Origin: Hydractinia symbiolongicarpus
Taxonomy: Eukaryota > Cnidaria > Hydrozoa > Anthoathecata > Hydractiniidae
NCBI RefSeq assembly: GCF_029227915.1
Contig: NC_079876.1
Location: 30,911,828 to 30,975,827, forward strand
Direction: 5' to 3'
Length of the DNA: 64,000 nt
Shown: positions 2,077 to 59,620 of the stretch, piece after piece
How the letters are laid out: the number at the start of each line of letters is the position of its first letter
How positions within the stretch are numbered: the first letter of the stretch is position 1
Notes under the pieces: model-generated
Seen by the model: the letters and a program-made list of their open reading frames with translations, nothing else
What the model was told of the DNA's origin: nothing
Database searches by the model: none
Position numbers and translations under genes: made by a program

Positions 2077-3165
2077 TCACGACAAACTTTTGATTCTTTC
2101 GACACTGTATGTTTCATCCATGGTGTAGTCATCTGTGTATGTATCGGAATACCAGTCCACTTCACTTACATTTGGAGCATACACATAATCATCGTTTGTA
2201 TCAACAAAAACTTCATCTATGTCATCATCAATTACAAGTTCTTTGCTTTGATATATTTCTTCATATATATTTTGAATCTCTTCATAAATAGGCTCATTAG
2301 CTTGTTTTAAGTCTTTTTTAAGAAAAACACTCTTGTGATTAACAATTTCTTCTCTTTCTTGTGCTGGCACTAAATCTAATTTAAGTTTTGATTTTCTTCG
2401 GATTTTCAGTATAACAGCAATCATGCTTAAAGTGATAGCAGATATTCCAGCTAGTGTTCCTAATGTTAATTTAACCTCTGTCGTCATTTTTCTTTGATAT
2501 TTTTGAATTGTGTGTGGGCATAGCGTTTTGGCGGGGACACAACTCTGTATATTTCGGATGTTGTCGCGAGCCTTGAGACAAAATGTGTATTGAGTACATG
2601 GCTTTAAATATGTAACAATTTTACTACACGTCCCGCAACCCCAGCCTGTTTGAAAGTTTTCAGTTATAGTTTTCTTGCCTGATGTTTTAATCAACTTGTA
2701 GTTATTCTTTAAGATTTCCCACTTAGAAACATTCCATTTTAGGGTAATTCGTGTCCTTTCTATACCGGTCACATGGAAATTCCGAATAACATGACAGTTA
2801 CTGCAATCTTTGCAGACATCAAATTTATGATATCTTTCCCAAATCTGCGAATTATTTGGCGTAGTAATACGAAATGTATAATTCTCACTATATAATTCTT
2901 GTATATTTGAAGTGCTGTGAAATAAACAGTGAAGGTTATATTTTAATTTCCTCCTGCTGACTTTGCATTTATTTGTGTAATTTTTAAATTTGCTTTGATG
3001 TTGCAGAAATAAATCTGATCCAGGTAACCTTTGACTTGTGTTTATTTGGATATCAAGAAAAATATGTTTATGGTCATTACTAAAACCACATTGCCAATCT
3101 TGCTTCAGTGATGCTGAAGGTACCGTGCAACTCATGAAGAGCAAAACCAGGATAGCCGTCTTCAT
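2077..3165 (-). CDS. type I membrane receptor, FN3-like ectodomain and tandem YEEI tail
   Basis: A 362-residue protein in one uninterrupted exon. Residues 1-19 are a signal peptide (start MKTAILVLLF, end PSAS). Residues 20-230 are a cysteine-rich ectodomain with sequons at N42, N62, N95, N104 and N145. Its second half (about 122-217) has a fibronectin-III look: TLKW at 141-144 and a YLKPCTQYTFCLKA strand, with extra cysteines. Residues 233-254 form one membrane helix, followed by basic KIRRKSK. The cytoplasmic tail of about 105 residues has nine tyrosines, including YEEI at 294 and 301, the optimal Src-family SH2 ligand once phosphorylated, and an acidic DDDIDE segment. This suggests a tyrosine-phosphorylated signalling or adhesion receptor. 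The two-part ectodomain weakly recalls cytokine receptors, but no WSxWS is present. The ATG follows tgtcttttag by 6 nt, so a 5'UTR intron or spliced leader precedes it. AATAAA on this strand lies near 1885-1900. Ligand unknown. Confidence 0.8.
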   Translation of the reverse strand: MKTAILVLLFMSCTVPSASLKQDWQCGFSNDHKHIFLDIQINTSQRLPGSDLFLQHQSKFKNYTNKCKVSRRKLKYNLHCLFHSTSNIQELYSENYTFRITTPNNSQIWERYHKFDVCKDCSNCHVIRNFHVTGIERTRITLKWNVSKWEILKNNYKLIKTSGKKTITENFQTGWGCGTCSKIVTYLKPCTQYTFCLKARDNIRNIQSCVPAKTLCPHTIQKYQRKMTTEVKLTLGTLAGISAITLSMIAVILKIRRKSKLKLDLVPAQEREEIVNHKSVFLKKDLKQANEPIYEEIQNIYEEIYQSKELVIDDDIDEVFVDTNDDYVYAPNVSEVDWYSDTYTDDYTMDETYSVERIKSLS

Positions 3166-4300
3166 TTTTGCTAAAAGACAATTAAAACATAATTTAAATT
3201 CACAGTAGACAACTCATTTAAATGTTGTCTATTCTCGCTTTGTGTTGATTGTGAAAGTTTAAAAAAATGTAGCATCTCATTTTTTTTGTACAGCACTTGA
3301 CATTTCTTTAAAAGTTCTATTGTTTAACTGTTGGGATCAGTGTGTAGTTAGTTCACAAAAAATCCCATCCTGGATATTCCAGGCTTAACTATTTTGTGCA
3401 ATGTTAGCATCAAATCAAGCCATGTGACAAACAGACAATGGGTAGCACTAAAAAACAAATTCTTAACAGTTGTCGAATCTGAAGTGAGTATTGTTGTCAT
3501 GTTGACTTTGTTCTAAAAAACTTTCCCTTATTCGTATTATTTCCTTACCTTGCTTTTTTGATAACATCATTTAGACAACATCGTGTGTCTGTACACATTG
3601 TAAGATTCAGTTATGATTTAAATGATTTGATTAATTACAACTGGATGTGTTCTTAATTGCAAATGGTTAAATAAATAATAGCATTTCTTTTATTTTACAA
3701 ATAACTTCTACTTAACAAATACTTGTGACGTAGGTGTGCGTTTTGCTTATTTTGCCAGTTTAGTTTATCAAAGTCGGTATCATAAAGAAATTATTATGAA
3801 AGGATGTAACAAGATTTAAATAATCTATGATTTGTTGACAGATGTATTCTCTATGGTTGTGTTAGGATTTCAACGCCTGCTTAAAACTGAGCATCATAAT
3901 AATCAAGTCTCTTGCAAATTGAAAAATCTTAGTTCTTATTAAAAAGACCAAAAAATAGGGATTTTTCTTATTTTTCTTAAAAAAAATTGTGATGTATATT
4001 CAAATTTTTAAAATTGTATAGGACTTAACATTTGATTAGAGTATTTTTTATCTATCTATGCAACAAAGGATGAAATATACGCATTTAGTAGCTTTATTAT
4101 AGTTTGTAACAAATTTGCTTTTTCATAACTAACCAAAAAGAAAATTATAAATGAAAATCTCTTGTGATCTCACTTAATTATCAGTGTGTGGCAGTTGCAA
4201 TCTCCATGGCAATTGTAATCTCTGTGATGGTTGTAGCATTTGTGACAGTTTTAGGATCTGTGACATTTAAAATTAGTTAAATAAAAGTTTTAATAGTGTA

Positions 4301-5651: not shown

Positions 5652-8600
5652 GATTAGCTCAATGTTATGAGCTTTGTCGTCAGTTACGTGGTGAATGTGG
5701 CCCTAGACAAGTGCCGAACGCTCAAGTTGGTCTGCAGCATAATCTTGGACTTGGTGGCGCATGCGTAGTAGGCTTGTATAGGAAAATGATTCCGCTGACC
5801 GTTACCAAGTGAGTATATTTGTCTGTGCACATATTTTTTTGATGGCGTGACCATGGATATTTGTTTTATAATTTTTGCTGGAATAGAGCATGCTGTGCTT
5901 CTGATGCATCTCATGCTGGCCGGGATATTTTTTATTACATTCACAAGATGTCACAGTATGATAATTTCGACCAGCGAGCTACCAATGTGCAGTGATTTAG
6001 TCTGTATAAGAAGTCACGTACGATTGATGTTATCAGTTGTAACATATGAAGTGTTTATATTCGTATGGAAATTTTTAAATTTGTGGATGAATCTTGACGT
6101 CGATTCTGATTGATAACATCTGTCAATTACCTTGATTTTGTCGTCGCTTATGGATTCAACTCACGTACAGTTTGCTCGACCTAACTTAATTAAAACTGTC
6201 TTTCCATACGACGTTTCCAACGTAATGTAAAGCGATACGACGTTATTCAACAGGACGTTATTCCACATGACATCCGACATTTTAATACTAACAATACAAA
6301 AGAACAAACAGAGTATACTATTCTTGTTTGAGTAATTCGTATGGAATGATCTCCCTCTCTATGCAAATTGTTTTTTTTATCATTACTTTTTGAAAATACA
6401 AAATTTTCTATCGTTTCCTCGACCCTTTAAAACCAATCTGTTGCACCAATTTTATTGAACTCCAATCTGTTTGCCGGCAATCCAGAAGTGCTAATTTTTT
6501 ATTCCCACCCCTAAAAATCAAAAAGTTTGCTTTTTCTGTTTCTTGTCAGGAGAAAAACTTCTGTTTATCTGTAAAACCAAAATTACTTTACGTTACTTGA
6601 GAGATACCAATGTCAGTCCTCTTACACCAGTATTTGTGCAAATTTATATTTTTGTCTAATAACCTGTATTTTTTACGACAGAATTAGCGATACGTCATCT
6701 ACAGTTTTGACGACGTCATTGGAATCAACATTCAAATCGGATATATTATTCACACAGCTAGAAGAGCAGTTACAGAAGGTATTGAATGTTTTTTGTTTTT
6801 AAAAAACACACGAGAATAGAAGATGTATGTGGCAGTTCACATCATTCACAAAGCTAGGGAGCCACGAGGAACTCTTTCAGGCGCGTGTAATGCATCATTT
6901 TCCACTGTTTGCGTTTAATAATACTACCGTAAAACGTCCAAGTGTAGTCACTGCAAAAAGCAACTTCTGAAAATTTAAAAAGTAATCTAAGCAATTGTAG
7001 TTACTAATCTTTCTCTATATAAAGCATTTGAGCTACAGCCACTTTGTGCATCGGTAACAACGCCTGAAAGTTAGAGGGGTTCGATCCGCAGACTCCTAAA
7101 TTCAAACCTACACACGATCTGCATTCCCCTAAATTCAAACCTACAGACCATCCGCGGCCCCTCAAACTCTAACCTAAAGACGATCCGAGGTCCCCATTTA
7201 ACCTACCGTCAATCTGCAGTCCCTAAAACTCGAACCCACTAAACCACGTGTGGGATGGTGTAAAAAATAAGGTTAGGCATGGAACATTTGTGTATACATT
7301 ATGTACTGAGTTCATCCGATCGGATCAGATCGGATCGGATCGAATCGGATCATGACCGGATGATCTTTGATAAAACCAAGCTTCTGAAAGAATACAAGTT
7401 CGTAGAAAACAACTTTCATAATGTTGAAAGAGTTTTTTTTTTGTATGATTTCGACTTTTTTAGTTTTTGTGGAAGAGATCCTTTAAATCTCATAGCTATC
7501 GATACTCTCGCAGATGATATCAGTTTAGCTCAACTCCTCGTCTCCAATCCACTTTTTTCAACACGTTTAATTAAGAAAAAAAAAGAAATAAAAATGTAAA
7601 ATAATTGAAATTAATTTTGTCTGCAAACCCTTTTAAAGAAACCTTATTCACAAAATAATGATAGACCTACAAGCTTATTTTTTATTTTGGTTTTATAAAA
7701 CACAGTAGAAAATGACACTTGCAAATTTTAAACGCTTTTTACCTGACCTAGGTGTGCGTAACGTAGCGAAAAAAGTAGCATTGAACATTTTACCCCCGTG
7801 TTTAAAAACTGTGTTTGTTTGTTTTATCAATATTATGCATGATTGTGGAAGTCAAACGACTTTTAGAAATGACGTCTCCGTCCAAACTATATAGGTCCGA
7901 AGTGATGACATTTTGAGGTGACGAAAATTAGGACGGAGAAAAAAGCCAACAAAAATGCGTTTATTTTGTATTTTTTAATATTGATTCGCAGAAAACCGTG
8001 TAGTTAGTAAGTTGATGAGCGAGTTTCAACAGATGTCAAGAATTTCAATATTCCATAAGTGGCGATAATATGGGCCAGGAAATAATTAGGATCAATGAAA
8101 TGTGGACTGAACTTAGGTCGATAAAACTTGGACCAGTATAACTTGGGCCGATAAAACTTGGGCTGATAAAACTTGGACCGGTATAACTTGGGCCGATAAA
8201 ACTTGGGCAGATAAAACTTGGACCGGTATAACTTGGGCCGATAAAACTTGGGCAGATAAAACTTAGGCCGATAAAACTTGGACCTGTATAACTTGAGCCG
8301 ATAAAACTTGGGCCGATAAAACTTGGACCGGTATAACTTGGGCCGATAAAACTTGGGCAGATAAAACTTGGGCCGATGAAACTTGGACCGGTATAACTTG
8401 GGCCGATAAAGCTTGGGCCGATAAAACTTGGACCGGTATAACTTGGGCCGATAAAACTTGGGCAGATAAAACTTGGGCCGATGAAATTGGGCAGGTAAGG
8501 GATGCTAACAAAGTGGTAAAAAAGTAAAAGCCTATCTTAATCTCACACGATCAAGAATCTTAAAGTGAATTTTTGTGGCTTTCCAAACAGCAAAACAAGG

Positions 8601-19109: not shown

Positions 19110-22080
19110 TTACTCCGTTGTTTCTACGTAAGAAAGGAAAATTTAACACAACGAGAACACAATATACTGATATAAAAAAAGACTAAATTTACAAACCTGC
19201 ATTTTGTGGTCGATAATACCGTTTCTTGTAATATCTCCAAACCTTTCTCCTATCCAAACGTCTAGGTGATCTTCTTCTTTTTCGTATAGGATCGTTTATT
19301 TCTGTTAACAAAAACATAAGTTTTCTCAAATAAAGGAACCTCCTTTCAATTCCGATTTTTCGGGGCCATTCAAAGGTTATTTGCCAAGCGATCAATTCCC
19401 CCCATATCCCCATCCCCACTTATATGTCACCTCTTAACACCAGTATACTTAGTACTGCAAGTACAGTATAAATGGAGTGTGATGAGGCGTTCTTCCAGCT
19501 ATGATCATAGAGCTTGAAGCCCAGGTGAAATCAGTGGAATGAAAAAAGCATTTATCTTATATCATCGCAAACAACAAAAAAGCTTTATAATACATAGAAT
19601 GCAACGTTTCTAGAAGTCCTTTGTTTTGGCCAACCAGGGTAGCCCTCGAGCTTTACCTTGTATTATTATCACAGATCTGCAAGAACAATTTACAAACCTG
19701 CATTTTTTGGTCGATAGTATCGTTTTTTGTAATATGCAAAAACTTTTCTTCCGTTCAAGCGTCTAGGCGATCTTCTCCTTTTTCGTATAGGATCGTTCAT
19801 TTCTATTAACAAAAACATAAGTTTTCTCAAAGAAAGGAACCTCCTTTCAATTCCGATTTTTCTGAGCCATTTAAAGGTGTTTTGACAAGCGGTCAATTCA
19901 CCCCATTTCCCCATCCCCACTTATATGTCACCTCTCAAAACGAACATACTTGATACTGCAAATCCCAGTGTAAATGGAGTGTAATGAGGCCCACTTTATC
20001 ATAGAGCTTGAAGCCCAGGTGAAATCAGCGGAATGAAAAAAGCATTTATCTTATATCATCGCAAACAGCAAAAAAGCTACGTTTCTAGAAGTCCTTTGTT
20101 TTGGCCAACCAGGGTAGCCCTCGAGGTTTACCTTGTATTATTATCACAGATCTGCAAGAACAATTTACAAACCTGCATTTTTTGGTCGATAGTATCGTTT
20201 TTTGTAATATGCAAAAACTTTTCTTCCGTCCAAGCGTCTAGGCGATCTTCTCCTTTTTCGTATAGGATCGTTCATTTCTATTAACAAAAACATAAGCTTT
20301 CTCAAAGAAAGGAACCTCCTTTCAATTCCGATTTTTCTGAGCCATTTAAAGGTGTTTTGACAAGCGGTCAATTCACCCCATTTCCCCACCCCCACTTATA
20401 TGTCACCTCTCAAAACGAACATACTTAATACTGCAAATCCCAGTGTAAATGGAGTGTAATAAGGCCCACTTTATCATAGAGCTTGAAGCCCAGGTGAAAT
20501 CAGCGGAATGAAAAAAGCATTTATCTTATATCATCGCAAACAGCAAAAAAGCTACGTTTCTAGAAGTCCTTTGTTTTGGCCAACCAGGGTAGCCCTCGAG
20601 CTTTACCTTGTATTATTATCACAGATCTGCAAGAACAATTTACAAACCTGCATTTTTTGGTCGATAGTATCGTTTTTTGTAATATGCAAAAACTTTTCTT
20701 CCGTCCAAGCGTCTAGGCGATCTTCTTCTTTTTCGTATAGGATCGTTCATGCTAACTTCATCAACATCAACATCAACATCATTATCAACTTCATCATTAC
20801 CATCTTCATTATCCATGCTGTCAGTGTTCTCATCTTCTTCTATCGCGTTTTCATCGTCTGTGGTATCTTTGTTTTGTTCCATGACATCTTCATCTTCATC
20901 AATTTCGTTCAAATCTATAAATTTTAGAAATTATTAAGAATTTGACTTTAGTTTTGAAACAAAGTACTTTAAAATGACCATATTTTGTTGAAAAATTTAA
21001 AACTATTTTTTACAGACCCATATAAGTATATATTTATATAACCATACAACTAAGACACTGGCATGCGAAAAGTAACTTAACAGAAGTCTATAAACATTAT
21101 CACAAGACTCACGTGACTTCCTACCTGATGTACTTTTCACATCATTCTTATCTTCTGTTCTTTCCAAACATGTTGCTAAACAAAAAAGATCTTTATCGTA
21201 ATGACCGTGTCGTGTGTGTGTTTGTGTGTGGATAAATGCAGCTGTATTTCGAAAAAATCATACCGATAATACACGCAATATCTCCCGTGAATTTTCCACG
21301 GTTCAACAACTAGTTAGTTATATATTTTTCACGGTCCAACAACTAATTAGTCATATATTTTTCACGGTCCAACAACTAATTAGTCATATATTTTTCACGG
21401 TCCAACAACTAATTAGTCATATATTTTTCACGGTCCAACAACTAATTAGTCATATATTTTTTAGTTATATATTTTTTACAGTCCAACAACTGGTTAATAA
21501 TACATTTTTTATAGGTCAACAGCTAATTAGTTATATATTTTTCACGGGTTAAGAACTAGTTAGTTATATATTTTATCATGATCACTAGTCACACGCAATA
21601 CGGAATCTGCAATATCATTGCACTATTTAGCTTCTTTCTTCTTTTTGCGTCGTCCTATTTTTACATGAAGCTTTAAAAGGGTGGAATTATCCAGTAGTGA
21701 ACTAAAACGAGTGGTTAATTTTCCATCAAAAGACACTTTTTATTCTTCCTATCCTTTTACATACAGATTCTTGCCCGATCCTGCGGAAACTTGTTCATGG
21801 TTTTTATAAATATCTATTTTTAGAGTGTTTGACTAGATATACGTTCGACTGCTATTGGAATCTCTTACAGATTGACCCCAGAATGGTGCCACTCTAAATT
21901 TAATCGAAAATCAATGGAAATGTCAAGAAAACGTTTTGAGCACTAAACATTAAAATTCTAGAAATCTTACACACAAATTTCAACTCCTAGAAACGTATTA
22001 AAGATTTGCTTTTAATAATTGGAATACATACCAGTGAGAATTAGACATGCACCCAACACGATAATGGCCCGTATCTTCAT
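19110..22080 (-). CDS. secreted precursor with four tandem basic Arg/Lys/Tyr modules
   Basis: Seven coding exons, 231 codons: 22080-22032, 21175-21125, 20914-20648, 20277-20173, 19802-19698, 19301-19197, 19123-19110. Every border is AG/GT and every junction is phase 1. Exon 1 is a signal peptide (MKIRAIIVLGACLILT). Exon 3 starts with a 53-residue acidic pro-region (27 Asp/Glu, one Lys), then the first module. Exons 4-6 are each 105 nt and encode one more module: NDPIRKRRRSPRRL, then a DGRKVFAYY centre, then KKRYYRPKNA. Each has 14 Arg/Lys in 34 residues plus four Tyr. RKRRR and KKR are furin/prohormone-convertase-like sites, so the precursor may be cut into repeated peptides. The last exon encodes four residues and the stop. 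Acidic propiece plus cationic C-terminus is the layout of Hydra arminin antimicrobial peptides; I know no sequence match. A neuropeptide or structural nucleation role is possible instead. A TATA box and 5'UTR donor lie upstream. Confidence 0.82.
19190..20760 (-). repeat. tandem exon-containing repeat, ~475-500 bp units
   Basis: Four genomic copies, each carrying one basic-module exon. Exon 3' ends fall at 19197, 19698, 20173 and 20648, a spacing of 501, 475 and 475 bp. The middle copies are nearly identical including intron DNA, while the 19197 copy is the most diverged (for example Trp-Arg in place of Phe-Ala, Gln for Lys). This gives a gradient from older to very recent duplication. Confidence 0.9.
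21290..21565 (+). repeat. 33 bp minisatellite in intron 1 of the peptide gene
   Basis: About eight units of 33 bp with the core cacggtccaacaactaatta, followed by gtcatatatttt. Central copies are identical. Lies between the coding exons at 21175 and 22032, on the strand opposite transcription. Confidence 0.88.
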
Positions 22081-22229
22081 TCTGTAAAAAATTTTGAAAA
22101 GAAATATTAAAACACAAAGAGTTAATATTTTAGAAAATCGCATAAAAATACTTTGTTTTGAAGTATACATCCACATAAACCATTCCTTAACTTCAGTGTC
22201 ATAGAAAGAATTAATGAAAAATAACTTAC

Positions 22230-22284
22230 GTAACAAGTAAGCCGTGTGTTGAGATATGTTTCAAACAATTTTATTGCTTTTATA
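22230..22284 (-). promoter_or_regulatory. TATA box and 5'UTR exon of the basic-peptide gene
   Basis: Read on the - strand, TATAAAAGC lies at 22284-22276. About 30 nt downstream a short untranslated exon would begin (near 22250) and end at 22230, where a perfect GTAAGT donor follows. The matching acceptor (ttttttacag) sits one base before the ATG at 22080. This makes an ordinary cis-spliced 5'UTR more likely than spliced-leader addition for this gene. Confidence 0.6.
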
Positions 22285-27531: not shown

Positions 27532-30500
27532 TTATTTGGATATATGATTTGAAACAGCTGGTTGATATTGGTGTTTTAGTCTGCGACCAGCTTTGTATCC
27601 AATGCTTCGTATATCCAAACTGTTAAAAGCAATTTCATTCTTTTCCAAATCAATCACCGTCTCTTTTTCTTCCTCCTGTTTTTGTTTAGGCGGCGCCCGG
27701 ACATATCTTGTGTTGAATGTTAAAGGCGTCATATTATTACCTTCATTACTGGAAAACACATCCGGAACAACAATTTTACCGATACCATATTTGGTATTGT
27801 TTTTTAACGAATGTTTTGTGTTGTGGGAGTTTGGTAACAGGGGTGCTTTAATTTTAGGCGCCGAGCCATTTCGAGTTGCAGAATTTGGATTGGCTGAGTG
27901 GTTGTATTCATTGTTTATATTCTTAGTCTGACTAGTTAGCCATTCATCATTCGTTATGAAATCAACATCTATGCTATCGTCATCTTCATCAAAATGATTG
28001 CTACCATTTATCGAGATGACGTCATCATAACTCCATGACGTCACGTTAATGTTTTTGCGTCGCGTAATGTCTTCGTCGCTTCTTGGTGAAGCAAAAAGTT
28101 GCGTGGATAAAGTCTCGTTTGAATCACGTTTTTGTAGTTTTCTTTTAGAGCTTGGTGAGAATAACATCCTTAACTTACTTCCTATCTTGGATGGTGTGCT
28201 TGGTCTGGACAATTCTTGTTTGTTGCTTGAAGAGCTAACCTTTCTTGATTTTTTTGGAGTACTTGGTCTGGGAGATATGCTTGGAGTGGTACTTGAGGTC
28301 GAGAAAATAACACTATCGTTGGGTAAGAAGCTAGATGGAATGTTTATCTTGCCAACGTTGGTATGTGTGTAAGTCTGGTCAGCCCATTTTTCGTTTGGCG
28401 TTTTAGGCAAATATTCTGGTATGGCATTTGTACCCTCCAACGTGTAATCTTTCACTTCAACATCCATTGCTTCAAGTTGCTCACCATTAAGTTCGTTACT
28501 GACGACATTTTGTTCAACAGGTGCAACTTCTATGTGGTTCTTGATTTGTTTTGCTTTTTGCTTCCTTGGTGACTGCCTTTTGTTATGTAAATTTGACGTT
28601 TTAAAGTCCTTGATATTTGACGTGTCCAAGGTCACGGACATGTGGTTTCTTTGTGTTTGCTGGGATTGAGGACTTTGGTATTTTGTTCTGTCAGAAAACT
28701 TATGGACTTGATATTCACTTGGTTTTATCACTCTCTCTTGGTTATGTTCTGGTAAATAATAATGTGTTATTGCATTGTTCTTATTATCGTTGACTTGAGT
28801 TGCAGGTACCTCTTTCCTTGTATAGAACGTTCTTGTGTCTTCTTCTTTTTGTGGCTGTTGCTGCTGCTGCTGTCTTCTGTTTGATACATCAACATTCACA
28901 TTGGCCTCATTAAATGAATTGCTCCTCTTCATTTCTTCATAACTACCATTAAAATGTCTGCTTTTTACTGATTGAGTGTTTATCGGCGATTGTTTTGGGA
29001 CCTGTTCCAGTGTCTCATGATCTGAAAATATTTGAACAGGATTTGCAGGAGTACGTGACAGTACTATTGTTTCCACTGATGCAACATCCTTAGTTACCTG
29101 CTGATTGGATGTCGAGGCGTTCTGTTTTGCTATGATTGGCTCCTTTGATTTAAATTCATTTCTGCCATTTTTGTCGTCATGAAATGATGGTAAATCCTTG
29201 TTTGTTGGGTTAGCTACCTTGTGTGGGTAGGTCCTGACACCTTCCAATTCCGACTCTGTCAAACTTAGTCGATGCGCGTGTGATGCTCCAATCCGATTTG
29301 AAGGGTTATCGCTTCCAATTGAAGTAGATAAACCATATTCTGTGTTCACACTCTCCAAACTCAATCTGCGCTGATTTGACTCTAAATTGGTTGTTGGTAA
29401 TTCAGAAACGGACGGCTTATTCTCCACATCTGCATCAAGTGAAGTAAAGGAAAAGGATTTCATTTTTGGACGTATCATTCTGTATGATTTTTCTTCTCGT
29501 TTTAGACTATCTAAGCCAGTCTTGTCTTTAAGATGCGATTTTAGCATTGCCATCACTTCAGATTTATTGATCGGGCGCTGGTCGGTATAAATCTCTGGCG
29601 ACTGTGCCTGACTATCCGCTGACATATTATTTAAAGTGCTAAAGGGATCATCTCCTAAAGTTATGTGCCGGGTAGGCGAGGGTTGTAACGGAAACATTTC
29701 AAATAAATTTTCTGTATCCGGTGCTTGGTCCCACGAGTTAGATTCATTAGATTCTCCTAAGAGAGATTGATTTCGGAATGCATAATCTGAACCCTGAGTT
29801 CCCTTATCGTAATTTGTCAAATTAAAACTTTCCATTTCCATCCGATCATCTGGACGAGGAGATCTACTTTTTATTGTGCTTCTGAGCTCGTTTAAAAGTG
29901 TTTCTTTTTTCTCAACATGGATGGAGTCTCCTTTAATCAGTGACAAATGACGTTGTCCATAGCGTGATGAAGGTGTCTCTGATTGTTCTATAGAAGAGCT
30001 CCTTCCTTGATGGTAAGAAGCATCAGCTTGTTTAGAATGAGCACGGAATGACTCTTCATCCACATTGTCGTAAGTATTTGATGAAGTGTAGTTATAATTT
30101 TGGGTATTTAAACCATTTGGTAACGATTTTGTTCGTTCAGCTAATAACGGATCAGGAAACTTATATTGAGTTGTAGCCTGGTGAGGATTTTTTGAGCGTT
30201 CCAGTGTCTTTGCTTTGGCTTTCAATATATTCTCTAGTTTATTATGTATACCGTTTCGTTTTTCATTTTCTTCCTCACGACTACTTCTTCTTTGGGTTTC
30301 TCTTTCATCTTCTTCGTTTAGTAATTCATGTAAGTTTGATAACGATCGTGTAATTTTAGCGTAGCCGTTATTATCACCGCTATCTTGACTGGTAAAGTTA
30401 ACTTGATCTGTCAAAGATATGATAAGATCATTGTTGGATCTATTTGTGGTTGGTGTCTCGCTAGCACTGCTGTGATTGGTACGATTACTACCACTACCGT

Positions 30501-31878
30501 AGCCATCATCATACGCACTATAATCCATCGAGCTGATTTTCTTAATATTATGCTCAAATATAGGATCAGTTTCAATTGAATTCATATCAGCTAAAACTTT
30601 GTTGTTTTTGATTAAAATCTTTTTCTGTAATGTTTCTTTCTCGTGTTTTTGCTTCTTTATGTTGTTGCCATATAGTTGTGTTGTATGAATAAGCCTATTT
30701 TCGTTCATATTTAATTTTTTTATTTTCGTTTCAATTGGAGATGAAACAGCTAACTGGTGATTGTATTCAAGCCATGAATTCGTTCGATTTTCTCTTTCAT
30801 TGGCCAAACCATTTTCACAATTTTGACTCATATTAAAATACTCCGACTGCGATTTTTTTTGAAAGTGCTTTGGGTGTTTATTCTTTAATTTAAATTCTTT
30901 TTCACTACGGACATCAAACGATAATATATCATCTACCTCAGAGTTAGAAATATTTATAACTCTCTCCGAATGTTCTTCTACAATATCTTTCTCATTAAAT
31001 ATTAAAGCATCATAGCTCGAGTTAGTTAAAATTTGATGACTTTTTCCTTCCAATGGATCCCAAGGTAAAACCTCCATTTTGTCATTCTCAATTGATTCAT
31101 CTTGAATAGGATTTTTGTTGAAATTATTATTTTCAATCTTTGTATTCATCCAATCATCAATAACCATGATATCACCTTTGTCAACGTTCGTTTGATTTTT
31201 GGGAAATCTTTCAGAACCATACTGACCTAAGAACTGATCTTCCCTTTGTTGTTCTTTGCTTATATTCGACATGCTTCGAATATCAAAACTATTTTTAGAC
31301 AAATATGCTTTGGCTGCAGCGCTTTTTGGGATCCAGCCCTCACTTTTACGTCTTCTTGGCTCATTCTGAAACTCTTCTACGGAGTGGTGTTTTGGCATCC
31401 ATGCCGTACGCTCTCCTCCGTTCTGAGATTCATTAAAAGTTAAACCAGCAAGGGATTTCGCATTCAGGTTAGCTGGGCGTGTCTCGTCATTCCTATGTCT
31501 TGAATTAAATGTATTTACTTCTTCGTGACTTTTATTGCTGATAGTGTCAAGCAGAAGTGTCTCTTGTGAAGAATTGATTCTCTGTTCATCCCAATATAAA
31601 CCTATGTGGTTAACGAACAAGTGTTCGCTGACGTCATCTTGCATCGGCTCCGTGCTATACTTGATTTGGTTTTCTGTTTCGTTGCCAAGTCGTTCTATGT
31701 GTTCAGTACTTCTAGCGCGAGTGAACAAATTTTGCAAATTATTTTCGTCTGCGATAATTTTTTTATTTGGATTTTCAGGACTAACCGTGATGATGTCTTC
31801 TTTTGGAGAAGTTACAGATGAGTTGCGCATTGCGTTGCGAAAGGAAAATGTTAAGTTGCCCAATCTTTTTTCACCCAT
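27532..31878 (-). CDS. large low-complexity protein of unknown function (1448 aa)
   Basis: One open exon of 1448 codons. The ATG follows ttttacttag by 3 nt, so an untranslated 5' exon or spliced leader precedes it. I recognise no folded domain. The protein is rich in Ser, Asn, Glu and Lys. It holds a Gln run (RRQQQQQQPQ), several basophilic kinase-type sites built on R-x-L-S-L (QRRLSLES, HRLSLTES, QRHLSLIK), a proline-directed Ser/Thr block (SISPRPSTPKKSRK, then ELSRPSTPSKIGSKL) followed by a strongly basic SPSSKRKLQKR, two WxPK motifs near the N-terminus (AWMPKHH, GWIPKSA), and a conserved-looking C-terminal end (SLDIRSIGYKAGRRLKHQ). No signal peptide or membrane helix. A cytoskeletal or scaffold adaptor regulated by phosphorylation is plausible but unproven. 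Coding reality is supported by length and by synonymous-looking composition across the frame. Confidence 0.88.
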   Translation of the reverse strand: MGEKRLGNLTFSFRNAMRNSSVTSPKEDIITVSPENPNKKIIADENNLQNLFTRARSTEHIERLGNETENQIKYSTEPMQDDVSEHLFVNHIGLYWDEQRINSSQETLLLDTISNKSHEEVNTFNSRHRNDETRPANLNAKSLAGLTFNESQNGGERTAWMPKHHSVEEFQNEPRRRKSEGWIPKSAAAKAYLSKNSFDIRSMSNISKEQQREDQFLGQYGSERFPKNQTNVDKGDIMVIDDWMNTKIENNNFNKNPIQDESIENDKMEVLPWDPLEGKSHQILTNSSYDALIFNEKDIVEEHSERVINISNSEVDDILSFDVRSEKEFKLKNKHPKHFQKKSQSEYFNMSQNCENGLANERENRTNSWLEYNHQLAVSSPIETKIKKLNMNENRLIHTTQLYGNNIKKQKHEKETLQKKILIKNNKVLADMNSIETDPIFEHNIKKISSMDYSAYDDGYGSGSNRTNHSSASETPTTNRSNNDLIISLTDQVNFTSQDSGDNNGYAKITRSLSNLHELLNEEDERETQRRSSREEENEKRNGIHNKLENILKAKAKTLERSKNPHQATTQYKFPDPLLAERTKSLPNGLNTQNYNYTSSNTYDNVDEESFRAHSKQADASYHQGRSSSIEQSETPSSRYGQRHLSLIKGDSIHVEKKETLLNELRSTIKSRSPRPDDRMEMESFNLTNYDKGTQGSDYAFRNQSLLGESNESNSWDQAPDTENLFEMFPLQPSPTRHITLGDDPFSTLNNMSADSQAQSPEIYTDQRPINKSEVMAMLKSHLKDKTGLDSLKREEKSYRMIRPKMKSFSFTSLDADVENKPSVSELPTTNLESNQRRLSLESVNTEYGLSTSIGSDNPSNRIGASHAHRLSLTESELEGVRTYPHKVANPTNKDLPSFHDDKNGRNEFKSKEPIIAKQNASTSNQQVTKDVASVETIVLSRTPANPVQIFSDHETLEQVPKQSPINTQSVKSRHFNGSYEEMKRSNSFNEANVNVDVSNRRQQQQQQPQKEEDTRTFYTRKEVPATQVNDNKNNAITHYYLPEHNQERVIKPSEYQVHKFSDRTKYQSPQSQQTQRNHMSVTLDTSNIKDFKTSNLHNKRQSPRKQKAKQIKNHIEVAPVEQNVVSNELNGEQLEAMDVEVKDYTLEGTNAIPEYLPKTPNEKWADQTYTHTNVGKINIPSSFLPNDSVIFSTSSTTPSISPRPSTPKKSRKVSSSSNKQELSRPSTPSKIGSKLRMLFSPSSKRKLQKRDSNETLSTQLFASPRSDEDITRRKNINVTSWSYDDVISINGSNHFDEDDDSIDVDFITNDEWLTSQTKNINNEYNHSANPNSATRNGSAPKIKAPLLPNSHNTKHSLKNNTKYGIGKIVVPDVFSSNEGNNMTPLTFNTRYVRAPPKQKQEEEKETVIDLEKNEIAFNSLDIRSIGYKAGRRLKHQYQPAVSNHISK

Positions 31879-34800
31879 TATCTAAGTAAAAAGAGGAATA
31901 AGAATTGTAATTGATTTTAAAGAAAGGTTTTTATTAAGAAGATTATACAAATATAACATTTCGATCAAGATGCGAGAAGAATAGAATTCTTCTCGTTACA
32001 TTTTAACACAATCCTTAAAAAAATCGGGAAATTGGCCTATCAAAATTTTTGAAATTTCAATTTTATCTAAAATGTTTTCTAAAATTAAATTTTAGAACTC
32101 ATGATTTTTATGGAAATAAAACTTTCACCAATTTTAAAAACTTTAACATTCTTCGTTTTTTGATTTTGTTGGTTTTTTTTCAGAAGAAAAATTACTAGAA
32201 AAATAATTGTTTAAAGACAAAATATGACCGACACGGTGTACACTTCTGCTGAAAAAACATTTTTGGCATAAGATTTTAACCGCGGGAGAGGAAATTTAAA
32301 TCCAGTGATATGCACAGTAACACGGATTCTAACCTTTTTATGAAAAATTCATGAAAATAAAAATATTACAGTTCTTCACAAAGCAACTGCATTATTTACA
32401 TACAAAATTCTTTTCATAAAGGCGGAACTTAAAATCATCATTTTGATGAACAACCTAACAACTGAGGGATAACGAAGGAAAGTGAGATTAAAAATTTATT
32501 GAGTATTTCAGAATCAATTTCGTTACCATAAAGAATAACCAATTTTTTTCTCACTCCCATGTAATCAAAGCCATAGCTAAGCTGCCATGTTTTCTATGGT
32601 TACCTTGTGGTTAGTGTAGCTAGGTCTTTTAAAAAAGTGTTGCTGTTTAAAAAAAACAAATTTGAAGAGACTTGAGGTCACTGATAAGTAGTAAATCAAG
32701 CTCGAAAATAAATGTTCTAAAATAATGGATTGAAACTCCTTAAGGGGGGGGGGGGGGGGGGTTCACGAAGCGAATTGAACGGCAAATTCGACGGCGAATT
32801 GAACTATAAAATAAATTAGGCGCTAAATTTATTGCTTACATTAGTTATATTCTTGTACTTGAGACGTGATTAACGATCCTCATTCCCATGCCCAGTGTTG
32901 TTCTCGTCTTACCTGAAGCCGTCATATCAAGGAAAAAGAGCAAAGACTCTACCGCAGCTCAGTTAACTCACAGAAATGAAGAGCAAGTCGGCGTTTCCCT
33001 CACCTTTTTTAATAAACATATCACTTTTGAATAAAGAAATATTTTATATTATTATTCAGATGTGAAATGTTGTCGGGGTTAATTTATGGGCCGCTGTTAA
33101 AGTCTAATTTTTTTAAAAAAAATACAAATTCATTGTCTAATATTTATCTACCTTTGTGGATTTTCTAGAACCAAATTTATAAATAAATTTAAAAGTGGCT
33201 AACTAGCGACATGTTTTTCCAACAAAATGTATTTTCTGACTATCTGATTAGCTTGCTACTTATGTATGGCATGCCGTTAATTTAACATTAAGTAAAGTTC
33301 TGCAAAATTATAACTTATTGATCTATTCATACATGGCGAGTTAGTCAGCTATACCATTATTTCTTTTAAATATACGAAGAGTGTGTCTGTCTCATCTACA
33401 TATATAACGTTTTTTAATCAGCGTTTACGACTAAGGAAATGAATATAAAATTTTTTTGTAGATCAGGGGCACTTGGCTGAAATCAGCAAAATGTTTGAAC
33501 CTTTATATTTCCTTAACCTTCTTTAAAAGCACATGATCCTCATGATCATCAAATTCAAATGACGGTTCTTTTTCATTGATATTCTGCCTAAGTGGATTTT
33601 TAACGGCCTGTATCGACTAGTCTTATGTAATAATACGAAATGTGTGTGACAGGAATAGTGTATGCGTTCATTTTGAAGTTGCCCAAAAAGTATGTCCTAT
33701 TTGTAAAATGCCTAAACGTTACGGCACGCATTTAGACTAACGTCAAATTATTAAATAAGAATAGTAAAGCCATTGCATTGCGTTTTCAAGTTTAAGGCTT
33801 CAATAACTGCGTTCGTAACTAGGGGCCTCCTGAGACCAAAATAGGATCAATTTCCTAAACCTCAACCCGCCTGTTTCAAAAAAAGGGGAAAACGTTACCA
33901 TAAAAATATCTCTGTAACTGTTTGTTAAAAAGGCATGATCCCATACACTTTCTTCATCAGCGTATTAAGCTCTATACAATGATTGCTAAAAATTTTTTTT
34001 GTACATTGGTGTGAAAATTTTTTAAAACTTATACACCTCTTCAACAGCTGATCAATACCGCGCGATCCTATACATTATTTTTATCAGCGTTTCAAGCTCC
34101 ACACAATTCAGATTTCCTTTTTGCATAATTCAACCAATAATCATAAACAATTTCTCAGAGCAAACCCGAATTAAAATAACTCAATGAGCACAAAGGCAGA
34201 GTGACCACATCTTACTTCCTAAATGGTAGCAGATTAAATTATGTTTGCTCCGGTGAGTGAAAATGCTTTCACTGACAATGATCATGAGGACCACAGAAAA
34301 TTCGTTTTTTGAGTGGCTTTATGTCTGTCTGTCTCCTGGCTACAGAAAAGACGGCACAAACATCCTCGCAGTAAATCAACACTTTACAGATCAGTCAGAC
34401 ATTTAACAAAACACCGGCTAACTTTCATCGTTTTGTATGTTGCATTGCCATAGAAATTTGGTACCAACTGCGTGGTTACCAACTGATAGACAATATCTCA
34501 GACAACCTCGATCCCAGGACATGTTGTCTCTTTTTGCATATCGGACGGCGAGACAAGCATGGCCCTGGTGGAGGCTGGTCAAAAATCTTTAATTTTCGCA
34601 GATTTTTAATTAATGCACTCGTGTCTTGTTTATCCAGAATTTTTTACTTCCTAGTCCTTGGTAAGCGAGATTCAATTTAATTATCACGGTCTGGATTTTA
34701 TCGTTATCCTTAAAAATGGAACTTTTTAGTGAAGACTGCACTGTGAAGACTAAGTAGTTGTGGAGGTGGCTCTAAAGTACATATTGTTGTTTTAAAGCAA

Positions 34801-36655: not shown

Positions 36656-36699
36656 TTTGCAACATGTAAAATCTGTGAAATTAGCATGGCAAACTGAAA

Positions 36700-37449
36700 T
36701 GGATTTCAGTTTCAGTGTATTGTAAACCAACACACACTGACCAGTACCTTAACTTCGAATCAAACGATCAGAAATCTTGCAAAGAAAGTGTCATATCTTC
36801 ATTAATGAATCGTGCCAACAGCGTAGTCAGTGACAAACAGGAGAGGAAAGAAGAAATTCGACGTGTAAGAAATGCATTAATCGCAAATGGATACAGTCAT
36901 GAAGTCATCACGCAAGTAGAAAATAAAATGAAGAGAAGATGCAACGGAGACAACAAGGAAACATCAGAGGAATTTATCGCATCAGCATTCCTACCCTTCG
37001 TACCAGGTACCAGCGAGATCCTTCGCCGAGTTTTAAATCAACACAAGATCAAATGCATTCTTAACTCTAAAGACACCCTAAGAAGCACTTTGTCTAAACC
37101 AAAAGACAAAATAATCCTGGAAGAACAAAGCAATGTTGTTTACGAAATCTTGTGTAAAGATTGTGATGCAGTGTATATAGGCGAAGCAAAAAGAAAGTTT
37201 AAGCAACAAGTTTAAGAACATATGCGCGCAGTGAGAAATGGAGATGTGAAGAAAAACGAAATTGCGGACCACAACTGGAGCAGAAGTCATCAGTTTAATT
37301 GGGATGAGAAGAAAATCATTGACAGAGAATCCAGAACAACGGCCAGGAAGATTAAAGAAACCATCAACAGTGTAGAATGTAACAAACACATAAACAGCAT
37401 CTCGTATCAACTTCCTGAGATTTGGTTACCAGCCCTACAGAAGAAGTAG
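36700..37449 (+). pseudogene. Penelope-like retroelement fragment (RT end + GIY-YIG)
   Basis: The frame opens at the end of a reverse transcriptase (SVYCKPTHTDQYLNFESN, a hallmark of Penelope-like RT thumb-adjacent sequence), continues through a linker (RRVRNALIANGYS) and reaches a GIY-YIG endonuclease core (VVYEILCKDCDAVYIGEAKR). An in-frame TAA at 37213-37215 interrupts it; the same frame continues to 37449 with EHMRAVRNGDVKKNEIADH and ends SYQLPEIWLPALQKK. So the copy is 5'-truncated and carries one nonsense change. The tail just downstream (37590-37625, gatgggagaaggatctccc then gaaacgtcg) is typical of 3' ends of such elements. No function retained. Confidence 0.88.
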
Positions 37450-49662: not shown

Positions 49663-49876
49663 ACTGACAACAAATCTATTCACAAATTATAATATTTTGA
49701 TTTATAAATTTTAAAAAAAATCCATAACAAACGTTTCAAATATGTTAATAAAAGAATGCCATTGAAAATTTAAAAGATTTTTATGATTTAAAATTTTTAG
49801 ACATTACATGAAAATTCCGGGTTGGTTTGCCGTCTGATAGAAAAATGTGTTTACATAAAAGAAAGTGAAAAAAAAA

Positions 49877-50812
49877 ATGTCAACAACTTTCGCGTACAAT
49901 TCATCAAACCAAAACATATCACACGAAGATGTTTGCATTACAGCCTTTGGGGCGTTTTACAGTAACAAAGATATCGCGAAGATAATATTTTACGCCGTTA
50001 TTATGGCCTTAATATTATCTGTAAATTCTATTTTAATCCGAGCTTTGTTAAAGAAGAAACGCACGAGGATTGATGTTTATTTTTTAATTCTTAGTGTATC
50101 AGATCTTTTTGTTGGCTTGTTAAGTGTACCAGCCGAGATTATTATTCATATTGGATTAAGTGTGGAGACTCTATGTCTAATATCGCCGTATTTTAATACT
50201 TTTATGGTCTTTCCTTATTCGTTTTCATCTGCAATGACAATGATTATATCCACGGATAGATGTGTCCTGGTTACAAATCCAAATTTTCATTCTAAATTTG
50301 GTCAACGTTTTCTGACGTACTTTATTCCATTTGCATTCGTTTTTTCTGCAACAATTAGTTTTCTTAATGGTCCTTTTGACGACAAGAATAAAAACAAGCT
50401 TGTAAAAAGCGCTGAAGAAAATGATTTTAAAAATAATTGGACAATCGTTCCTTTAGTGGTAATTGCATGTGAATTAGTAATAACTATTTTAGTGACTGCG
50501 TCTCAAATTTATCTAGTTTGTTACGTTACAAACCGGCTATCAAAAATGAAAAACAATCGCCAGTCTGAAGTTGACTACAATAAAAGAATGTCTTTAACTG
50601 TTGCAATCATGTTTGCTTGTAGTATTGCATGCAACGTACCTCACACGATAACATATTGTTTGTTCATTATCAGAAAACACGATTTGAAAACACATTTATA
50701 CACGACCAGTTTATTGCACTGGGCTAATATGACAATATATTCAAGTTGTTTCTTAAACGCTCTGATTATATTAGGAAGAAGTACGAAATTGAGGAAACGA
50801 TGTTTCACATAA
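49877..50812 (+). CDS. rhodopsin-like (class A) orphan GPCR
   Basis: A single-exon 311-residue receptor. Short glycosylatable N-terminus (N8, N13). Seven hydrophobic helices at about 35-58, 67-91, 105-131, 147-165, 189-215, 239-264 and 276-300. Family markers: N50 in helix 1 (LSVNSI), D76 in helix 2 (LSVSDLF), C100 before helix 3, DRC in place of DRY at 127-129, NVP at 253-255 in helix 6, and NALII at 294-298 where NPxxY is usual. The missing Pro and Tyr and the short tail (STKLRKRCFT) are common in cnidarian lineage-specific class A receptors. Ligand unknown. The start used is the ATG at 49877; an A-run precedes it. AATAAA lies at 51125. It lies 215 bp after a Mutator-like insertion, which now separates it from the upstream DNA conserved in its paralogue at 57923-58873. 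Confidence 0.9.
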   Translation: MSTTFAYNSSNQNISHEDVCITAFGAFYSNKDIAKIIFYAVIMALILSVNSILIRALLKKKRTRIDVYFLILSVSDLFVGLLSVPAEIIIHIGLSVETLCLISPYFNTFMVFPYSFSSAMTMIISTDRCVLVTNPNFHSKFGQRFLTYFIPFAFVFSATISFLNGPFDDKNKNKLVKSAEENDFKNNWTIVPLVVIACELVITILVTASQIYLVCYVTNRLSKMKNNRQSEVDYNKRMSLTVAIMFACSIACNVPHTITYCLFIIRKHDLKTHLYTTSLLHWANMTIYSSCFLNALIILGRSTKLRKRCFT

Positions 50813-57922: not shown

Positions 57923-58873
57923 TTATCTCAAACATCTTTTCCTCAATTTCGTGCTTCTTCCTAATATAATCAGAGCGTTCAAGAAACAATTTGAATATAC
58001 TATCATGTCAGCCCAATGGACTAAACTGGTCGTGTATAAATGAGCTTTAAAATCGTGTTTTCTGATAATGAACAGAGAATATAATACCGCGTGAGGTACG
58101 TTGCATGTGATGATACAGGCAAACATGATTGCAACAGTTAAAGACATTCCTTTATTGTAGTCAACCTGAGAGTGGCGATTGGTTTTCATTTTTGTTAACC
58201 GTTTTGTAACGTACCAAACCAGATAAATTTGAGATGTAGTCACTAAAATAGTTATTACTGATTCAAATGCAATTAGCACTAAAGGGAGGATTGTTTAATT
58301 ATTTCTAAAATTAATTTCGTCGGAGCTTTTTACAAGCTTGTTTTTATTCTTATCGTCAAAGAAACCACTAAGAAAACTAATTGTTGCCGACAAAACGAAT
58401 GCAAATGGAATAAAGTACGTCAAAAAACGTTGACCAAATTTAGAATGAAAATTTGGATTTGTAACCAGGACACATCTATCCGTGGATATAATCATTGTCA
58501 TTAGAGCTGAAAACGAATAAGGAAAGACCATAAAAGTAATTAAATACGGCGATATTAGACATAGAGTCTCCACACTTAATCCAATATAAATAATAATCTC
58601 GGCTGGCACACTTAACAAGCCAACAAAAAGATCTGATACACTAAGAATTAAAAAATAAATATCAATCCTCGTGCATTTCTCTTTTAGCAAAGCTCGGATT
58701 AAAATAGAATTTAAAGATAATATTAACATCATAACAACGGCATAGGATACTACTTTCGCGATATATTTATTACTGTAAAACGCACCAATGGCTGAGACGC
58801 AAGCATCTTCGTGTGATATGTTTTGGTTTGATAAATTGTACGCAAAAGTATTTGACATTTTTTTTTCACTCAT
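57923..58873 (-). pseudogene. GPCR paralogue with one in-frame stop
   Basis: Inverted paralogue of the receptor at 49877-50812, alignable end to end at high identity. The frame is open from 58873 (start MSEKKMSNTFAYN; the ATG matching the other copy is at 58858) except for TAA at 58295-58297, where the intact gene has the Trp188 codon TGG at the start of helix 5. After the stop the same frame resumes (TILPLVLIAFES...) and runs to 57923 with all later helices. DRC, D2.50 and NALII are kept, and most changes are conservative, so inactivation may be recent. The truncated product would have four helices. A sequencing error or a polymorphic null allele is possible. Confidence 0.85.
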
Positions 58874-59620
58874 GTAAATACCTTTCTTCTACCAGACGAC
58901 AATCCAACCAGAACTTTTTTGTAATGTGTTAAGATTTTAAATCATAACCATTTTTTATTTGCATTCTGTTATTGGCACGTTTAAAATATTTGTTATGAAT
59001 TCTTTTGGCAATTTATAAATCAAAATATTATAATTTGTCAATAGGACGGACAAATCTAAAAAGTTTTTTATGCAACTAGCAACGGGACATTGAATTAATT
59101 TAATCTAAGTTACCAAACCTATCTATCAGAAAATAACACCCGGGCAATAAATAAGGAATTTAACGCACGTAGTTGATGAAACTGAATGTTACAAAGGAAT
59201 ATTTTCAATGCACCTGGATCAAATGTTTTGCGTATGACCTCTTTAATATATGTATATGGGTTTAATTCTAAAAACATGTGACAAATCGATCACAAATCTT
59301 CTCTGGGACAAGAAATTGATATTGCGAAGTGAATTGTATATTATACACGCTTCTTCCTTAGAATAGCTAGTAAACATCATGTGACGAAAAAACAATTTTT
59401 TAAAAAAGTTGCACATAAAACGTAACAGCATTAACCCCAATATACATGGAGTAAGATGGGCGAGTAGACAAGCGCAGGAGGGGTTGGGTAGGGTAGGTCG
59501 TGTTGGGGAAGTGAAAAAATGCCCTACAAAAATAACTACCATTTTGCTGGCGTCTAAAGCAAAAAAACTTAGTGAAATGATATAGTCTCATAACAATTAC
59601 AGTCATGCCTCAAATATTGT
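58874..59620 (-). repeat. shared upstream flank of the GPCR copies, with empty Mutator site
   Basis: Reverse complement matches 46660-47185 and then, without a break, 49672-49860. At about 59040-59075 the sequence passes directly from agatttgtc to gacaaattataatattttg, where the other copy has the 2468 bp element. Thus the flank here is the pre-insertion arrangement. Confidence 0.75.

Follow-up and report, generated by a model that had tools for sequence, protein, structure and literature searches.

Does the run of short, strongly basic exons on the minus strand of contig NC_079876.1 of the hydrozoan Hydractinia symbiolongicarpus belong to a real gene, and if so, what would this gene make? The exons lie within a stretch of 64,000 nucleotides (nt; contig positions 30,911,828 to 30,975,827), which is referred to here as the window and from whose first letter all positions are counted. 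A sequence-only reading of this DNA had proposed a secreted precursor that combines a signal peptide and an acidic part with several cationic modules. The interpretation that we tentatively place first is that of a real animal gene, perhaps lineage-restricted, for a secreted precursor that would be cut at the motif RKRRR into cationic, most likely host-defense peptides.

A predicted seven-exon frame with four basic modules

Seven coding exons were predicted from the sequence of the minus strand, spanning positions 22080 to 19110. Joining them at their GT-AG borders yields 696 nt and a frame of 231 residues with its sole stop codon at the end, whereas the remaining two frames of the joined DNA contain 10 and 26 stops. 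All six coding junctions are in phase 1. The predicted product comprises, in this order, a signal peptide, a short linker, an acidic stretch, four basic modules, and the tail ETTE. The secreted-type multi-module precursor, the number of exons, and the uniform phase, all of which had been proposed previously, are borne out by this predicted frame.

The signal sequence combines a basic n-region with a hydrophobic core (mean hydropathy 2.94 over residues 6 to 16), and cleavage after Cys19 was assumed, at what we take to be an A-X-C signal cleavage consensus. A nuclear, protamine-like protein was considered and rejected because of this signal peptide. In the part of exon 3 ahead of the module, 28 of the 55 residues are Asp or Glu, so that the acidic stretch noted earlier is confirmed with a slightly different count (27 of 53 had been given). 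The modules are 35 residues long, not 34, and contain 14, 14, 14, and 15 Arg/Lys; the earlier figure of 14 holds for three of the four. RKRRR is present in every module, as is YYKKRYY, the paired YY-KKR-YY pattern that had been pointed out before. Each module contains the motif R-X-[KR]-R once, always in the context NDPI-RKRRR, and the rest of the protein lacks it. Each module also has two YY pairs, eight in total, which account for all 16 Tyr residues, and the sole two Cys residues (12 and 19) belong to the signal region. The acidic piece has a net charge of −29 and the four modules together +46, which leaves the precursor beyond the signal peptide at +17.

The splice sites differ in strength. 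Their percentiles refer to all GT or AG dinucleotides of the window and were obtained with an approximate matrix. On this scale, the top 2% include both the exon 1 and exon 2 donors and the exon 7 acceptor. Weak points are the module donors (CAG/GTTTGT, with the slash at the exon border), which reach the 94th percentile, the acceptors of exons 3 to 5 (81st to 84th) and of exons 1, 2, and 6 (92nd to 93rd), and the 14-nt exon 7, for which the acceptor (99.2 percentile) is the sole evidence. A nearer TATATCAG acceptor for exon 7 (98.9 percentile) was rejected, as the intron would shrink to 30 nt.

Divergence between the modules points to a maintained protein

The modules are true DNA repeats, spaced by 501, 475, and 475 nt. 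Over the 102 nt of the module, exons 3 and 4 are identical at 101 positions, exons 3 and 5 at 100, and exons 4 and 5 at 101. Because these three copies are nearly identical, their common open frame says little, and exon 6 provides the real test. To this exon, the identity drops to 87/102 for exon 3, 86/102 for exon 4, and 85/102 for exon 5. Between exons 4 and 6, nine silent changes on 22.2 sites face seven replacement changes on 79.8 sites (Fisher p = 0.0009, with rounded counts); 11 of the 16 changes are at third positions, and five residues differ. The comparison of exons 3 and 6 gave eight silent and seven replacement changes (Fisher p = 0.003), and that of exons 5 and 6, for which counts only were taken, nine and eight. 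These comparisons are not independent of each other, exons 3 to 5 being recent copies. In 20,000 neutral simulations, a stop codon was gained in 49%, and only 0.09% remained free of stops with no more than the five residue changes observed. Three of the five residue changes between the type A module of exon 4 and the type B module of exon 6 (G to R, F to W, and A to R) keep or add aromatic or basic character; the other two (M to I and K to Q) do neither. Because most of the change between module 4 and modules 1 and 2 is silent, and in view of the neutral simulations, we conclude that the modules have been maintained as protein.

Among the recent copies, the modules of exons 3 and 5 have diverged at 2 of 102 positions and the introns at 27 of 369, which is the same direction but not significant (p = 0.06). 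A tblastn search of the window with four pieces recovered the exons already identified, and no other match had an E value below 0.11.

These data bear on the possibility that the locus is decayed or unexpressed, a former coding gene of which the exon array survives as a mere tandem repeat. The gene model was predicted from sequence alone, and three near-identical recent modules say little by themselves, as this explanation would have it. However, all four modules are open, every coding junction has GT-AG borders, a TATA box and a good first donor are in place, and the module types show a silent-site bias, so that decay is very unlikely.

The exon array retains traces of its origin

The flanks of exon 4 do not share one history. 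Of 40 positions upstream of its module, exon 4 shares 37 with exon 6 but 10 with exon 3 (exons 3 and 6 likewise match at 10/40). In the module body, exon 4 is closer to exon 3 (101/102) than to exon 6 (86/102), and downstream it agrees with exon 3 at 60 of 61 positions but with exon 6 at 25 (exons 3 and 6 likewise, 25/61). Judged by these alignments, exon 4 is a chimera: its 5′ flank corresponds to that of exon 6, its body and downstream intron to those of exon 3, a hallmark of unequal crossing-over. A single unequal crossover between the module 5′ edges of exon 6 and exon 3 would generate an exon whose acceptor derives from exon 6 and whose body derives from exon 3. The symmetric duplication of phase-1 exons that the sequence-only reading had suggested thus gains a recombination signature.

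A second, younger duplication probably followed the crossover, because introns i34 and i45 (365 of 370 positions identical) agree far better with each other than either does with i56 (342/369 and 343/369, respectively, plus 28 gap columns). Silent sites between the two module types have diverged at 9 of 22 positions, the introns at 26 of 369 (p = 3e-5). As the silent sites are far more diverged than the introns, the ancestor probably already possessed an old A module (exon 3) and an old B module (exon 6). Such a two-module ancestor would have been near charge balance (−29 + 11 + 12). Gene conversion could mimic parts of this duplication history. The locus preserves a readable record of the birth of peptide exons, in which recombination at the 5′ edge of a module supplies a same-phase exon with a ready-made acceptor.

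Proposed processing of the precursor and possible functions

Exon anatomy, phase, constraint on the protein, and chimeric flanks can be read in the DNA itself; the processing and function of the precursor we infer from it. A furin-like convertase would cut RKRRR in each module, a motif that presumably conforms to the furin and convertase consensus, and the basic residues would then be trimmed. Provided that the signal peptide ends after Cys19, this would release an acidic propiece of 74 residues with a net charge of −29. The four peptides freed along with it would be 30, 30, 30, and 28 residues long and carry net charges of +6, +6, +7, and +7, and the first three would span an exon junction; the predicted mature peptide is SPRRLDGRKVFAYYKKRYYRPKNAEMNDPI. 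Cutting at RKRRR into cationic peptides of 28 to 30 residues is the most likely mode of processing. The freed peptides would act extracellularly, most likely in host defense, by binding anionic microbial or glycan surfaces. Additional module exons would provide more peptide per transcript, and the acidic part would probably serve as a partial mask or folding aid. As a first guess, host defense is ranked first, with structural use and signaling behind. In favor of this interpretation as a whole are the single open frame through seven exons, the recurrence of R-X-[KR]-R in every module, the constraint between the module types, the chimeric flanks of exon 4, the signal peptide and bipartite charge in common with Hydra antimicrobial peptides (PMC10945409), and the precedent of furin freeing tandem antimicrobial peptides (PMC8423362, PMC9246212).

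The charge of the predicted peptides (+6 and +7) fits that of cationic antimicrobial peptides. For disordered cationic antimicrobials, a net charge of at least +4 and few order-promoting Tyr, Phe, and Trp residues are described (PMC6399351; here and below, published systems are represented by excerpts of the sources cited). The charge of the modules agrees with this concept, but their aromatic content does not.

Several observations weigh against the host-defense interpretation. Gene, peptides, and activity are predictions from sequence. Convertase cleavage at the internal KKR, RR, and RK, should it occur, could break up the long peptide. Joint cleavage at RKRRR and KKR had been proposed before, and basic motifs are indeed found in every module, but cutting at every basic run leaves fragments of 2 to 13 residues; therefore, RKRRR and KKR cannot both be full sites for one long peptide. 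The suggestion that the acidic part masks the basic modules suits the near balance of a two-module ancestor, but not the present precursor: because its net charge is +17 (−29 versus +46), the acidic part is unable to mask four modules fully. Part of the acidic stretch is encoded by a simple hexamer-like repeat (20759 to 20797), a further weak point. No Cys follows the signal region, whereas a complex cysteine pattern is usual for the antimicrobial peptides of Hydra, as far as the excerpted account describes them (PMC10945409). The best helical moment was no better than that of shuffled peptides (p = 0.60 for type A and 0.21 for type B), and the same was true of the best strand moment (p = 0.61 and 0.92). 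An amphipathic-helix argument for antimicrobial activity was rejected, since shuffled peptides score equally well. A single-sequence AlphaFold model of exon 3 was poor (predicted local distance difference test, 65; predicted template modeling score, 0.17) and contained one helix of 12 residues, in GRKVFAYYKKRYY. Furthermore, searches of protein, prokaryotic, and viral collections found no homologue to support conservation beyond this one gene.

The Tyr pairs and the charge blocks allow a different interpretation, in which the precursor is a structural polyampholyte that is left uncut or cut once, its halves condense, and its Tyr residues are cross-linked in an extracellular coat, an adhesive, or a stinging capsule. 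In addition to the 16 Tyr in YY pairs, two pairs per module, and the acidic and basic blocks, this agrees with the lineage-restricted, splice-rich nematocyte genes with alternative stops that are known in Hydra (PMC2687796). It does not explain why an R-X-[KR]-R site is found at the identical place in every module; moreover, the protein has no Cys beyond the signal region and no collagen-like repeat, and the Pfam search found no adhesive or matrix relative above the cut-off. We regard a structural role as unlikely, though worth keeping in view.

If, instead, both KKR and RKRRR were cut, the gene could be a signaling precursor. Three 13-mers, YYRPKNAE(M/I)NDPI, would then be freed across exon junctions together with a terminal YYRPQNAETTE, and splitting at all basic runs would leave SP, LDG or LNG, VFAYY, and YYRPKNAE(M/I)NDPI. 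Preprohormone C of Hydra follows the same plan: its exons are repeated, and its non-amidated peptide takes its last residues from the start of the following exon (PMC8638164). In a variant of this explanation, the GRK within modules 1 to 3 (LDGRK, LDGRK, and LNGRK) could give rise to short peptides with an amidated ...RRLD or ...RRLN end; GR is among the processing and amidation signals listed for cnidarian precursors (PMC8638164), and the occurrence of GRK after LD or LN in three of the four modules slightly raises the case for signaling. The predicted product would be YYRPKNAEMNDPI or an amidated short peptide. However, the 13-mer lacks a Gly for amidation, no G precedes KKR or RKRRR, and module 4 reads DRRK in place of GRK. 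Modules 1 to 3 preserve the supposed spacer SPRRLDGRKVFAYY no less faithfully than the 13-mer, and the strings KKRYYRP and YYKKRYY were not found in the papers searched. Taken together, a signaling precursor is unlikely as well.

Returning to a precursor of cationic peptides, its module number might be adjustable. Each module donor (G/GTTTGTAA, which reads G/GT TTG TAA) also encodes Gly-Leu-stop, so that an unspliced module ends in NAGL-stop in all four cases. The computed net charges of products with one, two, three, and four modules that end at the intron stop are −16, −5, +7, and +19, compared with +17 for the fully spliced form. A stop-bearing exon is described for preprohormone C of Hydra (PMC8638164), and several nematocyte genes of Hydra use alternative stops (PMC2687796). 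A new peptide family whose copy number is tuned by unequal crossing-over and by intron retention or early polyadenylation is nevertheless an improbable proposal; if it were true, one gene would yield precursors from acidic and masked to strongly basic.

Searches for relatives

When the precursor was shortened to 161 residues by omitting modules 2 and 3 (leaving exons 1, 2, 3, 6, and 7) so as to respect a length limit, the protein collection gave 28 candidates, none with E ≤ 1, and exon 3 read to the intron stop gave no candidate there with its module part only. This collection appears to cover spliced animal genes poorly: a query with a G protein-coupled receptor (GPCR) of the window returned only the window's own protein, so that absence says little. 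Searches with exon 3 found 161 pattern stretches in prokaryotic contigs and 14 in viral contigs, none of which was confirmed; neither collection is well suited to finding spliced animal genes, and the acidic part is the source of four of the six patterns. Modules 2 to 4 plus tail had no match at E ≤ 1 among solved structures. In Pfam, the best scores were 11.7 bits for the shortened precursor and 11.0 bits for modules 2 to 4 plus tail, against cut-offs of 34 and 28.4, respectively. The four module strings were absent from the paper text searched, and a general literature search returned analogues but no description of the gene. The earlier remark that the pattern is unlike known families therefore agrees with the lack of Pfam, protein, and solved-structure matches (for the structures, with the modules only). 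The peptide appears to be unrecognized, but it can be called undescribed only for the collections and literature searched.

Features of the gene and its surroundings

Upstream of exon 1, a probable exon 0 ends in the donor TAC/GTAAGT, which is followed by an intron of 148 nt and then by TTTTTTACAG/AATG, the intron ending one base before the ATG. Because of the TATA box, the GTAAGT donor, and this intron that stops one base short of the ATG, a non-coding first exon likely precedes exon 1. Position 22284, which the sequence-only reading had taken as the end of the feature, is that of the TATA box.

Table 1. Predicted features of the precursor gene; positions are those of the window.
Feature	Position	Strand	Remarks
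TATA box (TATAAAAG), probable core promoter	22277..22284	−	55 nt ahead of the GTAAGT donor
Probable non-coding exon 0	22230..22258	−	5′ end guessed from the TATA box, unmapped; intron begins at 22229
Exon 1 (coding part), signal peptide MKIRAIIVLGACLILT	22032..22080	−	Donor CTG/GTATGT, phase 1; hydropathy 2.94 over residues 6 to 16
Exon 2, signal peptide end and short linker (ATCLERTEDKNDVKSTS)	21125..21175	−	Both borders in phase 1; donor at percentile 99.7, acceptor at 93.4
Exon 3, acidic piece (28/55 Asp/Glu) fused to module 1 (type A)	20648..20914	−	Predicted
Exon 4, module 2 (type A)	20173..20277	−	105 nt, phase 1-1
Exon 5, module 3 (type A with one residue change)	19698..19802	−	105 nt, phase 1-1
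Exon 6, module 4 (type B, diverged)	19197..19301	−	105 nt, phase 1-1
Exon 7, tail ETTE and stop	19110..19123	−	Acceptor 99.2 percentile; least certain exon owing to its length
Duplicated introns i34, i45, and i56, with exons 4 and 5 between	19302..20647	−	Identity 365/370 between i34 and i45; 342/369 and 343/369, plus 28 gap columns, against i56

Two further observations concern the introns of this gene. The first coding intron contains an array of 33-nt tandem repeats (21291 to 21574). In all three copies, the module frame stays open through about 40 codons of the intron tail ahead of exons 4, 5, and 6 (19189 to 20395, minus strand; open reading frames (ORFs) of 76 residues); therefore, even a transcript that started within an intron would include the module in frame. 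On the same strand, upstream of the gene, lies an open frame of 1449 residues (27532 to 31881) without a Pfam match above cut-off.

Elsewhere in the window, the plus strand carries a class-A GPCR ORF at 49859 to 50812 (7tm_1, 50.4 bits; cut-off 30.5). By eye, the region from 57923 to 58888 on the minus strand is a near-copy of it in opposite orientation, split into two ORFs at about 58295; the part from 57923 to 58294, the only one scanned, scored 19.3 bits, under the 7tm_1 cut-off. A single-exon ORF of 378 residues at 2077 to 3213 (minus strand) has a signal-like start, a hydrophobic segment, and a tail with, by eye, several YEEI-like tyrosines; with a weak fn3 match (E = 1.2e-4; 22.7 bits, under the cut-off of 25), it is possibly a cytokine-receptor-like protein. 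The 15/105-nt repeats at 8004 to 8550 (minus strand) contain long ORFs in three frames, one of which reads as protein repeats, and are probably a plain minisatellite. Finally, the ORF at 36685 to 37215 (plus strand) had no Pfam match above cut-off and ends in CKDCDAVYIGEAKRKF, which we take to resemble the GIY-YIG motif of a retroelement.

Comparison with known peptide precursors

The arminin precursor of Hydra holds one basic part, and the apidaecin precursor of the honeybee is proline-rich and has EAEP spacers and RR sites. For precursors that arise by tandem exon duplication, same-phase repeated exons and a signal peptide are characteristic, and both are found here (exons 3 to 6, and the predicted signal peptide, respectively). 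The comparisons that follow were made by description.

The antimicrobial peptides of Hydra usually have a signal peptide and a bipartite charge, and the arminin and periculin genes are restricted to Hydra (PMC10945409). Arminins, which occur as paralogous copies (PMC10945409, PMC12013895), resemble the precursor described here in the signal peptide, the acidic front (−29 in the present case), and the basic back (here +46). Unlike the arminin peptides, which have a C-terminal Gly for amidation (PMC12013895), the four modules described here lead to a product that ends in ETTE.

The idea of a new peptide system was overstated as far as architecture is concerned, which is found in the same or close forms in several animals. 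The GRFamide preprohormone C of Hydra is encoded by a ten-exon gene with a signal-peptide exon and seven repeated exons that carry one peptide copy each; every peptide is completed by the next exon, the copies are non-amidated, and splice variants arise en bloc (PMC8638164). In contrast to the modules described here, its product is a neuropeptide of the pQW(L/F)SGRFGL type, and an acidic-plus-cationic plan does not figure in the excerpted description (PMC8638164). The apidaecin gene likewise has several exons with one antimicrobial peptide each, and its multipeptide precursor is thought to amplify output; the similar hymenoptaecin precursor of ants has EAEP spacers and RR sites (PMC3415428), whereas here RKRRR is found and EAEP is not. 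Baramicin A of Drosophila shares tandem repeat peptides that are freed from one precursor at RXRR furin sites (predicted sites in the present case), but contains the IM24 and IM22 domains (PMC8423362, PMC9246212). In Xenopus laevis, the magainin and caerulein genes encode frog skin peptides in tandem exons of near-zero divergence, for which unequal crossing-over was named as one source of copies (PMC3731216). By analogy with these systems, the gene architecture is already known; the peptide itself appears to be without recognized relatives. If expressed, it would join the tandem-exon precursors, a class that spans neuropeptide and defense genes, here with an acidic propiece; otherwise, the gene is probably one among the many lineage-restricted secreted peptide genes of invertebrates.

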